Shown in pieces: positions 3,214 to 21,646 of a stretch of DNA of 21,646 nucleotides. Origin of the DNA: a virus; the IMG/VR virus record IMGVR_UViG_3300025151_000350, positions 1-21,646 of that record, one strand, 5' to 3'. The position numbers and the translations under genes were made by a program. The notes under the pieces were generated by a model. It searched no databases. It saw only the letters and a program-made list of their open reading frames with translations, and was not told the DNA's origin. How positions within the stretch are numbered: position 1 is the first letter of the stretch; every line of letters starts with the position of its first letter.

Positions 3214-3436
3214 CAACGTAACCTGCCCTTCGCATTACAACCAAGGTGATGTCGAGTGCATCGACGGCATCAAGGCCAGCATGTCTCCTGAAGGTTTTCA
3301 GGGGTATCTCAAGGGGAACATCCAAAAGTACATATGGAGATACGAGATAAAAAAAGAGCCTGTAGAGGACCTGCGGAAGGCCCGTTGGTACTTGGACCGT
3401 CTCATTATGGAGCTAGTAAATGGCACCATGGAGTAG
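3197..3436 (+). CDS. DUF3310 family phage protein
   Basis: 79 residues. The conserved DUF3310 pattern is clear: SHYNQGDVECIDGIKASMS near the N-terminus, then GYLKGNIQKYIWRYEIK and EDLRKARWYLDRLI. This domain occurs in many tailed phages and in the T7 gp1.7 nucleotide-metabolism protein. Its biochemical role outside T7 is not established. The start is the ATG at 3197 with CGGAG about 10 bases upstream; an in-frame ATG at 3155 would add 14 residues lying fully within the upstream gene. It belongs to the same apparent operon as the RHH gene. Confidence 0.88.
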   Translation: MPKNFDNVTCPSHYNQGDVECIDGIKASMSPEGFQGYLKGNIQKYIWRYEIKKEPVEDLRKARWYLDRLIMELVNGTME

Positions 3437-6966: not shown

Positions 6967-7081
6967 TTGACTTTACTCCCTTAGTATGCGATGATATAGG
7001 AGTCGGGGGTTATGCCCTCGATTTCTGTTGCCACCCGGTGACAGGGTATGTTCCACGTGGAACACTAACTTTGGGAGAAAA
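6967..7081 (+). promoter_or_regulatory. promoter and leader of the 7084 unit
   Basis: TTGACT at 6967-6972, box GTATGCGATGATATAGG at 6984-7000, a parS-like palindrome (7049-7064) where the other leaders have a GC hairpin, then ACTTTGGGAGAAAA (7068-7081) as RBS. The last element is complementary over 14 contiguous bases to the candidate small RNA. Confidence 0.65.
7049..7064. other. parS-like palindrome 1
   Basis: TGTTCCACGTGGAACA, a perfect 16-bp palindrome. It matches the core of bacterial chromosomal parS (TGTTtCACGTGaAACA type) with a symmetrical change at two positions. An identical copy lies at 15513-15528. ParB binding is inference. Confidence 0.55.
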
Positions 7082-7996: not shown

Positions 7997-8614
7997 ATGC
8001 CTAAACAGAAAAGCCGCTATGCCAAGGTGCTGGACACCAAGGCGGCGTCCCTTCCCGAAGCCAAGCGCCAGAAGCGCAACCGACCCCCGCTAGCCGAAAA
8101 GCGCCTGACCCGAAAGCAGGAGCTTTTTGTCCGGGAACTCGTGTCAAAAGATGGACAGATCACCATGCGGGAAGCGGCAATCAACGCAGGCTATCCCGAA
8201 CGGTCTGCCCATGTCAGGGCCTCTGAATTAACCAACCCCAAGATCAGCCCGCACGTTTGCCGTGCGATCCGAGAATACCGACAGGAGCTTGATCAAAAGT
8301 ACGGCGTGGAATACCAGCGGCACCTGCGAGATCTTCAAGTTATCCGGGATGCTGCGTTGGATAGCGGCGCGTTTTCTGCCGCAGTGCAGGCGGAGTATCG
8401 CCGGGGTCAGGCGCAGGGAGACATCTACGTCAACAAGACCGAGATCCGTCACGGTACGATTGAGCAAATGAGCAAGGAAGAAGTTTTGAAAGCTTTGGAC
8501 GAACTCAAGCAGGTCTATGCCCCCTTGACACATGATGCGGGAGTAGAGGATGCTGGTAATAGAACAAAAGCCAGAGAACGTTTGGGAGAGCAAGCAATAG
8601 ATGTTTCTGATTGA
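7997..8614 (+). CDS. terS: terminase small subunit
   Basis: 205 residues. After a basic N-terminus, LTRKQELFVRELVSKDGQ then MREAAINAGYPERSAHVRAS (about residues 37-76) is the helix-turn-helix region typical of Terminase_2-type small subunits, which recognise the packaging site and present DNA to the large subunit. The helical middle fits the oligomerisation core. GGGGG lies 7 bases before the ATG. Unusually, terL is about 7 kb away, beyond the cassette array. Confidence 0.82.
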   Translation: MPKQKSRYAKVLDTKAASLPEAKRQKRNRPPLAEKRLTRKQELFVRELVSKDGQITMREAAINAGYPERSAHVRASELTNPKISPHVCRAIREYRQELDQKYGVEYQRHLRDLQVIRDAALDSGAFSAAVQAEYRRGQAQGDIYVNKTEIRHGTIEQMSKEEVLKALDELKQVYAPLTHDAGVEDAGNRTKARERLGEQAIDVSD

Positions 8615-14956: not shown

Positions 14957-14978
14957 CCCGCCGCCGAACTGCTACCCG

Positions 14979-15003
14979 AACCCCGCCCCGTGCGGGGTTT
15001 TTT
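14979..15003 (+). terminator. intrinsic terminator, unit G
   Basis: AACCCCGC/GCGGGGTT (14979-14986 with 14992-14999) and T6. It closes the array. Confidence 0.9.
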
Positions 15004-15332
15004 GTGCCCGCGGTTTCCGCCCCGCCGCCGACAGTTTTTGGTTTTTGGCACGGGCACCGGGCAAGCTGCCGAACCGCCCTGGCGTCGCATACGCCCCCCA
15101 GTGTTTACGCGGCTTTCCGAGCGGTTCGCGGGAGAGACTCGAAAAACGCTTCCTCGAATCTACTTTAAGTGTCCGCCGCAACGCGCAACGCGTAACACGT
15201 GGCGCGGGGGCCGCGCCCCCTGCACCCAGCGAAACGCACAGCGGCCCGTGGGCCGCGATCCCCAGCGCCGCGGGCCGCGTTGCCGTTGTCATGACGCGTG
15301 TCCGGTTTCCCACCCTGCCGCGTGTCCGGTCA

Positions 15333-15360
15333 ACTGTCTATAACGTTCATTATAGGAAGT
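15333..15360. other. dif-like XerCD site
   Basis: 28 bp as two 11-bp arms around 6 bp: ACTGTCTATAA, CGTTCA, TTATAGGAAGT. The arms match 9 of 11 as inverted repeats. The right arm read in reverse is ACTTCCTATAA, 10 of 11 with the XerC arm of B. subtilis dif (ACTTCCTAGAA, from memory). Functional status is inference. Confidence 0.4.
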
Positions 15361-15512
15361 TAGGAATCCCCGCGGGGCCCGTGGCCGGATCGCGTCAAAC
15401 GGCGCTCTGGCAACTGGTCGGGGCCGCCGCGCCTCGCATCGCGGCCCGCGGCTGGCAAGCGGGCACAAGTTGCATGTTTTTCACAAACAACACAGTTGTG
15501 AAACCATATCGA

Positions 15513-15528
15513 TGTTCCACGTGGAACA
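15513..15528. other. parS-like palindrome 2
   Basis: TGTTCCACGTGGAACA, identical to 7049-7064. Confidence 0.55.
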
Positions 15529-15564
15529 AAAAAGTCGATAAAAAAGGGTAAGCCGAGAAGAAAA

Positions 15565-15579
15565 GGTCATTTGTGGCCA
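15565..15579 (+). repeat. GGTCATTTsTGGCCA repeat, copy 2
   Basis: GGTCATTTGTGGCCA, followed by AAATAAAAAAA as near copy 1; a related GTCACATGTGGCCA lies at 15606-15619. Confidence 0.55.
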
Positions 15580-15597
15580 GATAAATAAAAAAACTAG

Positions 15598-15665
15598 CCG
15601 TAGGAGTCACATGTGGCCAAAAATTTTGTAAAAATTTTCAAACCTACGGTATCCTATATGCTTTA
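15598..15665 (+). promoter_or_regulatory. terL control region
   Basis: Inverted repeat CCGTAGG/CCTACGG (15598-15604, 15643-15649) encloses two AAAAATTTT copies 11 bases apart (15619-15627, 15630-15638). Right after it, GGTATCCTATATG gives -10-like hexamers. It looks like an operator-promoter for the late genes. Confidence 0.45.
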
Positions 15666-15696
15666 ATACCCTGAAGTAATTAAAAGGCCATCTCAT

Positions 15697-17166
15697 ATGT
15701 CGATTGAATTGGGGTCAGAAGAAGAGTTAGAAGAGAAGTTTCTGAAGCTTCAGTACCGCTTGGCCCAGATTGAAAAGGTCGAATCGTGCCAAAACAGCTT
15801 CCTAAGCTTTGTCCGCTCCATGTGGCCCGAGTTCATTGCAGGGCGACACCACAAGATCATGGCCGAGAAGCTTGAAAGGGTGGCCAACGGCGAGTTAAAG
15901 CGCCTGATCATCAACATGCCGCCGCGACATACCAAGTCTGAATTTGCCAGCTTCCTGTTCCCTGCGTGGATGATCGGAAAGAAGCCTGCGATGAAAATTA
16001 TTCAGGCAACGCACACTACGGAGCTTGCGGTTAACTTTGGCCGAAAGGTGAAAAACCTTCTGGAGCGCGAGGATTATCTTGAGATGTTCCCGGACGCCGC
16101 CCTGTCGGCGGATTCCAAGGCATCGGGCAGATGGGACACGGCCCGTGGTGGCATGTACTACGGCGTGGGTGTTGGCTCAAACTTGGCGGGCCGTGGTGGT
16201 GATTTGATCATTATTGACGATCCGCACTCGGAGCAGACGGCGATGTCGCTGAGTGGCTTTGATGATGCGTGGGATTGGTACACGGGTGGTCCTCGACAGC
16301 GTTTGCAGCCGGGCGGAGCCATTATTGTGGTGATGACGCGGTGGTCAGAGAAGGATTTGACGGGTCAATTGATCCGGGCGCAGGGCCGGGATGAGCTAGC
16401 GGACAAGTGGGAAGTTATCGAATTTCCTATGGAGATGCCGTCTGGCGAGCCTTTGTGGCCGGAGTTTTGGTCTTTTGAGGAGATGCAGGCGGTCAAGGCG
16501 TCTATCCCGGGTCCGAAGTGGAATGCGCAGTACCAGCAGAATCCGACGGGTGATGAGAACGCGATTATCAAGCGCGAGTGGTGGAAAGTTTGGGACAAGC
16601 CCACGGTGCCGCAGCTTCAGTATGTTATTCAGAGCTACGATACGGCGTTTTCTAAGAGTACCCGGGCGGACTACAGTGCGATTACCACGTGGGGTGTTTT
16701 TTACCCAGACGAAGGCACCGTAGCAAATTTGATTCTTTTGGACTCAAAGAAGGGCCGCTGGGACTTTCCAGAGCTAAAACAGATGGCGATGGAGATGTAT
16801 CAGTTTTGGGAGCCTGAAACGGTCATTATTGAGGCTAAGGCAAGTGGTTTGCCGCTTACGCACGAACTGCGAAATATGGGCATTCCTGTGGTAAACTTTA
16901 CCCCTAGTCGAGGAAATGACAAGGTGTCAAGGGTGTTCAGTGTTTCTCCGTTGTTTGAAAGCGGAATGATCTGGGCCCCCGACGAATCTTGGGCGGAAGA
17001 AGTTATTGAAGAGTGTGCCGCGTTTCCTAATGGCGAACACGACGACTTGGTGGACAGCACCACTCAGGCGTTAATGCGATATAGGCAGGGTAATTTTGTT
17101 CAATTGCCCTCTGATTATTGGGAAGATGAAACTGCAAACATTAAGCCCATGCAGTATTACGGATAA
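15697..17166 (+). CDS. terL: terminase large subunit
   Basis: 489 residues, normal length. ATPase: deviant Walker A NMPPRHTKSE (K80), Walker B DLIIIDDPHS (D174/D175) and the coupling-type VVMTRW (211-216). RNase H-like nuclease: SYDTAFS (D315), VIIEAKASG (E379) and EHDDLVDS (D449/D450, D453). It packages DNA into the prohead using ATP and cuts concatemers. AAAGG lies about 9 bases before the ATG. It leads the putative structural gene block and is separated from terS by the cassette array. Confidence 0.96.
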   Translation: MSIELGSEEELEEKFLKLQYRLAQIEKVESCQNSFLSFVRSMWPEFIAGRHHKIMAEKLERVANGELKRLIINMPPRHTKSEFASFLFPAWMIGKKPAMKIIQATHTTELAVNFGRKVKNLLEREDYLEMFPDAALSADSKASGRWDTARGGMYYGVGVGSNLAGRGGDLIIIDDPHSEQTAMSLSGFDDAWDWYTGGPRQRLQPGGAIIVVMTRWSEKDLTGQLIRAQGRDELADKWEVIEFPMEMPSGEPLWPEFWSFEEMQAVKASIPGPKWNAQYQQNPTGDENAIIKREWWKVWDKPTVPQLQYVIQSYDTAFSKSTRADYSAITTWGVFYPDEGTVANLILLDSKKGRWDFPELKQMAMEMYQFWEPETVIIEAKASGLPLTHELRNMGIPVVNFTPSRGNDKVSRVFSVSPLFESGMIWAPDESWAEEVIEECAAFPNGEHDDLVDSTTQALMRYRQGNFVQLPSDYWEDETANIKPMQYYG

Positions 17167-21091: not shown

Positions 21092-21646
21092 ATGAAGTTT
21101 ATTCTTGTGTTGCTGTGTGCGGTAACCTTGTCGGCATGTTCTTCGACAACTTCTCAATATTATGAAGCGGTTCAAAAAAGTGCTGAAGCTAACGCACAGG
21201 CGGCGCAGGCAAAGTTTGATGCGTTGTCGGCTATTGCGGCGGCAGGCGATGGACAAGCGGCTAGTGCTGCGGTTATGGCTCTAGCCATGACACAGACACC
21301 TGTTGTACAGCCTATTCCCCAGCAGTCTCAAGCAATTCAGTGGGCAAGCATACTGGCTGCCCCGATCAGCAACTTGGGTATGGTGTGGATGCAGGCAGAC
21401 TCAACCAAGACCATGGCCCGCTATTCAGCAGAGGTTGATATGGCCCGTATCACCGCGGATGCGACCACTCAGCAAGCGCTTTACGGTTCGTTTGTCAGTA
21501 TGGGCGAGACTACTGCCACGGTAGCCAGCAACATCGACTACACACCCTTCGTAGATGGAATGGTGACTCTTGGCACTACGGGCATGGATAATCTAACAAC
21601 CCTCGGCACCAACGGTATGGATAACCTGACGGCGCTTGGCACTCAT
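21092..21646 (+). CDS. lipoprotein, C-terminus outside window
   Basis: 185 residues visible with no stop. MKFILVLLCAVTLSAC is a lipoprotein signal with lipobox LSAC and C16 as lipidation site. TAGGAGATAAACC before the ATG is a strong RBS. The mature part is Ala/Gln/Ser-rich and helical. The visible end has short repeats (TTGMDNLTTLGTNGMDNLTALGT). Phage lipoproteins include superinfection-exclusion and spanin outer-membrane proteins; the length and late position leave the role open. Confidence 0.8.
   Translation, partial: MKFILVLLCAVTLSACSSTTSQYYEAVQKSAEANAQAAQAKFDALSAIAAAGDGQAASAAVMALAMTQTPVVQPIPQQSQAIQWASILAAPISNLGMVWMQADSTKTMARYSAEVDMARITADATTQQALYGSFVSMGETTATVASNIDYTPFVDGMVTLGTTGMDNLTTLGTNGMDNLTALGTH

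Follow-up and report, generated by a model that had tools for sequence, protein, structure and literature searches.

A conserved 28 bp site beside the terminase genes of tailed phages: a possible target of host tyrosine recombinases

Introduction

Why should a tailed phage with lytic-type genes carry, shortly upstream of its large terminase gene, a near-palindrome of the kind on which site-specific recombinases act? The question is raised by a 28 bp element in a stretch of viral DNA of 21,646 bases (hereafter the window). The original prediction took this element for a dif-like site with adjacent accessory repeats and a nearby parS, and proposed that host XerCD is used at it for integration or dimer resolution, as in IMEX phages and phage-plasmids. 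The interpretation that we favour, with something short of even confidence, is that the element is an orphan tyrosine-recombinase crossover site at which a host enzyme makes circular, monomeric phage DNA.

The phage and its relatives

The window, which is the full length of its own record, covers part of the genome of a tailed phage. The gene for the terminase large subunit (TerL; 15697–17166, plus strand) was identified by tblastn to annotated terminases, and its product shares 63.9% identity with that of phage 023Pt_psg01 from seawater and 62.6 and 54.3% with those of the Pelagibacter phages HTVC027P and HTVC023P, respectively. The terminase small subunit is encoded at 7997–8614 on the plus strand (phrog_51, E = 1.4e-13). 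The gene content is of lytic type, with a DNA polymerase, helicases and an exonuclease, and no lysogeny gene was seen in it. The replication genes are 94% identical to those of G431, a record of 57,758 bases with a 77-base end repeat, which we take to be the complete circular map of a close relative. No tRNA gene was found in the window or in G431.

The 28 bp site and its conservation

The site lies in a non-coding gap (14957–15696) that separates TerL from the last early ORF; a mechanical ORF of 241 residues that spans this gap is not kept open in two relatives (L013 and L115). At 15333–15360 the plus strand reads ACTGTCTATAA CGTTCA TTATAGGAAGT; the site is described here on the minus strand, where it consists of ACTTCCTATAA (the XerC-like arm), TGAACG and TTATAGACAGT. 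The predicted 11+6+11 geometry, with arms symmetric at nine of 11 positions, is present in the sequence. Taken alone this geometry is weak evidence and close to chance, since the window contains seven such arrangements with at least 9/11 symmetry, whereas 20 first-order Markov sequences average 2.95. It is the conservation of the site across contigs that raises it above chance.

The consensus ACTGNCTWWAA-N6-TTWWAGGAAGT was found beside terminase genes in 32 contigs, 22 belonging to the family of the window and ten to unrelated phages (L084, L086–L089 and L093–L097). A strict TTAAAT pattern matched eight IMG/VR contigs and the looser pattern ACTGNCTWWWWNNNNNNWWWWAGGAAGTT matched 15, where less than one match would be expected by chance given uniform composition and the collection sizes assumed. 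Terminase genes adjoin 13 of these 15 matches, while the other two (L092 and L098) are inside long open frames. A search with a flank motif of the family returned 23 contigs, 19 of which have the site. The site is absent from the family contigs L111, L113 and L120, and also from L014, and is therefore dispensable; L112 begins at the flank motif. There is exactly one copy in G431.

The terminases beside the site are clearly of different kinds. In the unrelated phages, those of L084, L087, L093, L094, L095 and L097 were confirmed by PHROGs or tblastn: the L095 terminase is approximately 40% identical to those of Klebsiella and Escherichia phages, that of L093 is 40–45% identical to those of Pseudomonas, Paracoccus and Sulfitobacter phages, and that of L094 gave weak matches only. 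Sequence resemblance was the basis for recognizing those of L086, L089 and L096. For L088 there is a putative small subunit only; the contig stops before any large-subunit gene. The small-subunit label in L088, L089, L093, L095 and L096 was given by position and appearance; the ORFs adjoining the site in the last four of these, which the PHROG scan covered, have matches of unknown function only, and the corresponding ORF of L094 has no PHROG match. Searches of open-licence PMC papers showed no account of the 28 bp site, nor of a parS kept upstream of these terminases. When the L087 site was compared with phage and plasmid collections, partial matches were obtained in two phage and 124 plasmid records, those listed having E of about 4. 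They include one in pSK41, upstream of the replication initiator gene, and were taken as chance.

To the left of the site, the window has its only two copies of the 12 bp direct repeat CGCGTGTCCGGT (15295–15306 and 15319–15330, plus strand), as had been noted. The related motif CGT[AG]TCCGGT is found near the site in five of 21 family contigs, with nine matches in 16.8 kb near the site against two in 206 kb. Repeats of this type are a local feature of the site neighbourhood. The suggestion that they act as Xer accessory sequences fared less well: since only these five of 21 relatives keep them, they are not obligatory as accessory sequences.

Anatomy and orientation

The anatomy of the site was scored over 23 distinct sites, with the right arm read as its reverse complement. 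At position 4, all 23 left arms have G and 20 of the 23 right arms have T; at position 5, every right arm has C, which no left arm has. Such a fixed difference between the arms is unlike a homodimer operator, and for this reason a heteromer of the Xer type is the most likely to act here. The six central bases are variable, although T comes first (in the reverse-complement reading) in 22 of the 23 sites. The centre starts with TGT in nine of them, and the TGTATA of L087 and L088 is the commonest gammaproteobacterial centre in the dif set that we examined.

TerL faces the right end of the site in 12 of 21 family contigs and the left end in nine (L108 was left out of the 22, and the side in L007 was read from coordinates). 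Alignment ends cluster at the site edges, with 72 of 800 in the 15-base bin before the site and 60 in the bin after it. With respect to TerL, the site thus undergoes inversion in place. Since TerL is found on either side and alignments break at the edges, the directions of packaging and transcription are irrelevant to the site.

Recombinase and partition genes

No match to the Phage_integrase profile PF00589 was obtained in 22 records, or at E ≤ 10 in 12 more including the complete G431. A phage-encoded cognate recombinase of the Cre/lox type was thus not found with PF00589 in 34 records, one of which is both complete and site-bearing. ParB_N gave no match in G431 at E ≤ 1 and none in ten records overall. 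In 14 control genomes PF00589 was found in all 14 and ParB_N in 11. As neither profile matches G431, its site and its parS are orphans so far as these two profiles reveal, which fits the use of host proteins for both. The position of the site beside packaging genes, together with the failure to find such an enzyme, suggests that the enzyme is borrowed from the host; a highly divergent phage-encoded recombinase, or a recombinase of another class, may act instead. The features of a phage-plasmid were not found either, as the ten records gave no ParB_N partition gene and the closest plasmid TerL is only 36% identical. Plasmid relatives were rejected on account of these distant TerL matches.

Related palindromes in bacteria and similarity to lox and rox

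Among 84,980 species genomes the strict pattern was found in six contigs, three of which are from two Sumerlaeota-type genomes and one Halomonas, the other three matches resembling terminators or chance. The two Sumerlaeota-type genomes and the Halomonas genome have one copy each (allowing up to three mismatches). Ten of 40 genomes of the Sumerlaeota-type phylum match, including G056, with eight extra repeat matches, and G033, in which the match is inside an ORF. In G038 and G061 (L131 and L136), 112 and 127 bp separate the palindrome from an Xer-type gene, and in G282 and G165 (L141 and L142) a tyrosine-recombinase gene lies 161 and 173 bp away, Pfam having been run on L131 and L141 only. These Sumerlaeota-type and gammaproteobacterial palindromes beside Xer/Cre-like genes share the arms ACTTC[CG]..AA-N6-TT..[CG]GAAGT with the phage site but, unlike it, they are symmetric and chromosomal and have a recombinase gene 112–173 bp away in the four cases given. 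The arm type is thereby tied to tyrosine recombinases by neighbourhood only. The canonical dif pattern was found in none of seven genomes (G382, G165, G282, G091, G022, G023 and G058).

We note that at the Sumerlaeota-type loci L127, L128, L131 and L133–L136 the palindromic 28 bp site is mostly present as one copy, in some cases beside an Xer gene, and is possibly the dif of this phylum. In G382, five loci (L166–L170) have lox-like palindromes, GTTACTTTCG..N6..CGAAAGTAAC, whose surroundings are phage-like and whose neighbouring genes vary; several are near terminase-like ORFs (by eye), as if the palindromes marked a cargo spot in related prophages. The copy on the Halomonas contig (L102) is near-symmetric, and an ORF on this contig is plasmid-replicase-like by eye.

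The phage site has near-palindromic arms round a short asymmetric spacer, as do sites of the Cre/lox type. It has the outer bases TAACTTC in common with loxP of P1 and rox of Dre. It can also be read as 14+4+14, which is the layout of rox (PMC4777119). The role expected of the phage site beside the packaging start is likewise that of loxP and rox, whereas its arms are fixedly asymmetric and no Cre/Dre-like gene was detected in the complete relative.

Proposed role of the site

The loxP site of P1 serves in circularizing incoming DNA and in resolving multimers. By analogy, the 28 bp element would be an orphan Xer/Cre-type crossover site, made up of an 11 bp arm, a 6 bp overlap and a second 11 bp arm, with the host recombinase supplied in trans. 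As packaging is expected to start near the terminase genes, many packaged genomes would carry a copy of the site at each end, within their terminal redundancy. Recombination of these end copies with each other would circularize the incoming DNA, and recombination among the copies of a multimer would resolve it to monomers. We infer that a recombinase acts on the site, that this enzyme is the host's and that the reaction has this outcome. If the site is indeed a target of a host recombinase, phages without a recombinase gene would solve circularization or multimer resolution by carrying the site alone.

Supporting this interpretation are the asymmetric arms, the variable centre, the single copy, the terminase neighbourhood and the flips in place, as well as the lack of any recombinase or ParB gene detected in G431 and the recombinase genes adjoining the related palindromes. 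Counting against it are the second arm, which is not an XerD arm, the presence of the phage form in no sampled chromosome, the resemblance of neighbouring boxes to regulator sites and the dispensability of the site. In our view a crossover site is still the preferred reading over an operator, a dif site for IMEX integration, or a packaging site or hairpin, but the preference is tentative.

parS and regulator-like boxes upstream of TerL

The original prediction placed a parS-like site about 150 bp away, and this is borne out by a perfect parS-type palindrome, TGTTCCACGTGGAACA, at 15513–15528, upstream of TerL and 152 bp past the 28 bp site. A second perfect palindrome of this type, absent from that prediction, lies between ORFs at 7049–7064. 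Both copies agree with the 16 bp parS consensus palindrome TGTTYCACGTGRAACA. Two parS sites are present in G431 too. If one mismatch is allowed, 36 of the 73 relatives with enough sequence have parS in the 400 bp upstream of TerL, compared with three matches elsewhere in 574 kb. Upstream of TerL it is often paired, with the copies 24 bp apart.

Near the site in the ten unrelated contigs parS is absent. In the 5.85 kb that lies no more than 300 bp from the site, these contigs have 13 NtrC-like GCACYANNNTRGTGC boxes, compared with none in the other 66 kb; the boxes are near the site in L084, L086–L089 and L093–L096, often on both sides. Fur-like boxes give ten matches in seven of the unrelated contigs and none in 66 kb, and sit on the GGAAGT side of the site. 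SlmA-box-like palindromes, GTGAG[CT]ACT[CT]AC, were seen in the pre-TerL gap of L007 (448 and 686), L008 (4691 and 4941) and L014 (4941). The names NtrC, Fur and SlmA presume the consensus sequences that we assumed for these boxes.

The concentration of parS, NtrC-like and Fur-like sites in these gaps fits the main rival reading. On this view the 28 bp element would serve a host DNA-binding protein as an operator or architectural site and would belong to a set of host-protein sites before the late genes, through which the phage senses or uses the state of its host. There is a precedent in the CtrA-box-rich gaps of Alphaproteobacteria phages: according to PMC9437464, phage gaps are dense in such host-regulator sites, which are maintained despite rearrangement, and lytic deferment has been put forward as an idea for them. 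In both cases an intergenic phage gap gathers sites for host proteins, but the present gaps hold parS, NtrC-like and Fur-like sites together with a 28 bp recombinase-type core. We consider an operator possible but somewhat less likely than a crossover site, since a fixed asymmetry over 28 bp with a free 6 bp centre is unusual for a homodimeric regulator, the related palindromes adjoin recombinase genes and the complete genome G431 has a single copy.

A broader proposal, which we regard as rather unlikely, is that unrelated tailed phages share a chromosome-mimicking kit consisting of an orphan Xer-type site plus orphan parS or regulator-like boxes, with which lytic-looking phages lacking ParB and recombinase would use the segregation and dimer-resolution proteins of the host. 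One family combines the site with parS, others combine it with regulator-like boxes, and their terminases differ; if a host recombinase does act on the site, this joint occurrence would make a testable case of phages carrying sites for host chromosome-maintenance and regulatory proteins beside their packaging genes.

Comparison with dif

The gammaproteobacterial dif sites examined mostly read ACTTCG[CT]ATAA-TGTATA-TTATGTTAA, and nine of them plus that of E. coli were used to construct a matrix. One arm of the window site had been described as close to a known XerC arm, and it is indeed identical to gammaproteobacterial ACTTCGTATAA at ten of 11 positions and scores 13.0 of 18.5 bits, with most relatives lower (4.3 bits). 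The XerD arm, TTATGTTAA, is not conserved in the phages, scoring 0.9 of 18.9 bits in the window and −7.8 to 3.1 bits in the relatives scored. The whole site scores 10.8 bits, the best in the window yet below the null 95th percentile of 11.0; the relatives scored range from −4.2 to 11.7 bits in the better orientation, and the G431 site is not among the top four scores of its own genome. Where gammaproteobacterial dif has CG, the phage arms have CC without exception.

The phage site and bacterial dif thus have in common their 28 bp length, the 11+6+11 arrangement, the XerC-like arm and a centre that is often TG-first, but they differ in the XerD arm, in the location of the phage site beside the terminase and in that no chromosomal match was found. 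The phage form was found in none of 398 Pseudomonadota genomes, the four matches there being of a different form; 369 gammaproteobacteria had only symmetric or near-symmetric forms, in seven genomes, and none of the six GTDB-scan matches (TTAAAT core only) was an asymmetric copy of the phage type. The canonical dif of a sampled host was rejected as an identity for the site, as no chromosome examined carries a matching site.

Judged by its sequence at the defining feature compared, the XerD arm, the site does not appear to be a member of the dif family, but it may still work like dif. The proposed use of host XerCD is therefore upheld in part: the conserved Xer/Cre-type architecture, the XerC-like arm and the lack of a phage recombinase speak for it, and the XerD arm and the whole-site score against it. 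Genes for an integrase, ParB or lysogeny were not seen, so that IMEX integration and a phage-plasmid life are unproven, and membership in the dif/XerCD or IMEX group is not established. We therefore think it improbable that the site is a true dif or attP at which host XerCD integrates the phage into a chromosomal dif. The XerC arm and the TGT-first centres are what such a site might show, and PMC3025954 describes the XerD arms of phage dif-like sites as degenerate; the low XerD score, the whole-site score within the null, the lack of a matching host dif in the genomes surveyed and the lytic-type genes with no lysogeny gene seen all weigh against it. Least probable is a packaging cut site (cos or pac) or an RNA or DNA hairpin since, although the site is always beside terminase genes and is partly palindromic, it is common to phages with very different terminases and flips relative to TerL, which led us to reject a packaging site, and its arms vary independently, with complementary inner arms in no more than 11 of the 23 sites and 76.1% of cells paired compared with 75.1% in shuffles, which led us to reject a hairpin.

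Other features of the window

Between 9.8 and 14.4 kb the window has a row of genes, each preceded by a repeated leader; this is often a terminator-like hairpin followed by GTATGCGATA-like and [CT]ACTTTGGGA motifs and then the start codon. A small lipoprotein-like gene at 21092–21646 is similar, by eye, to one at 3383–4228 in L097, an otherwise different phage with the same 28 bp site.
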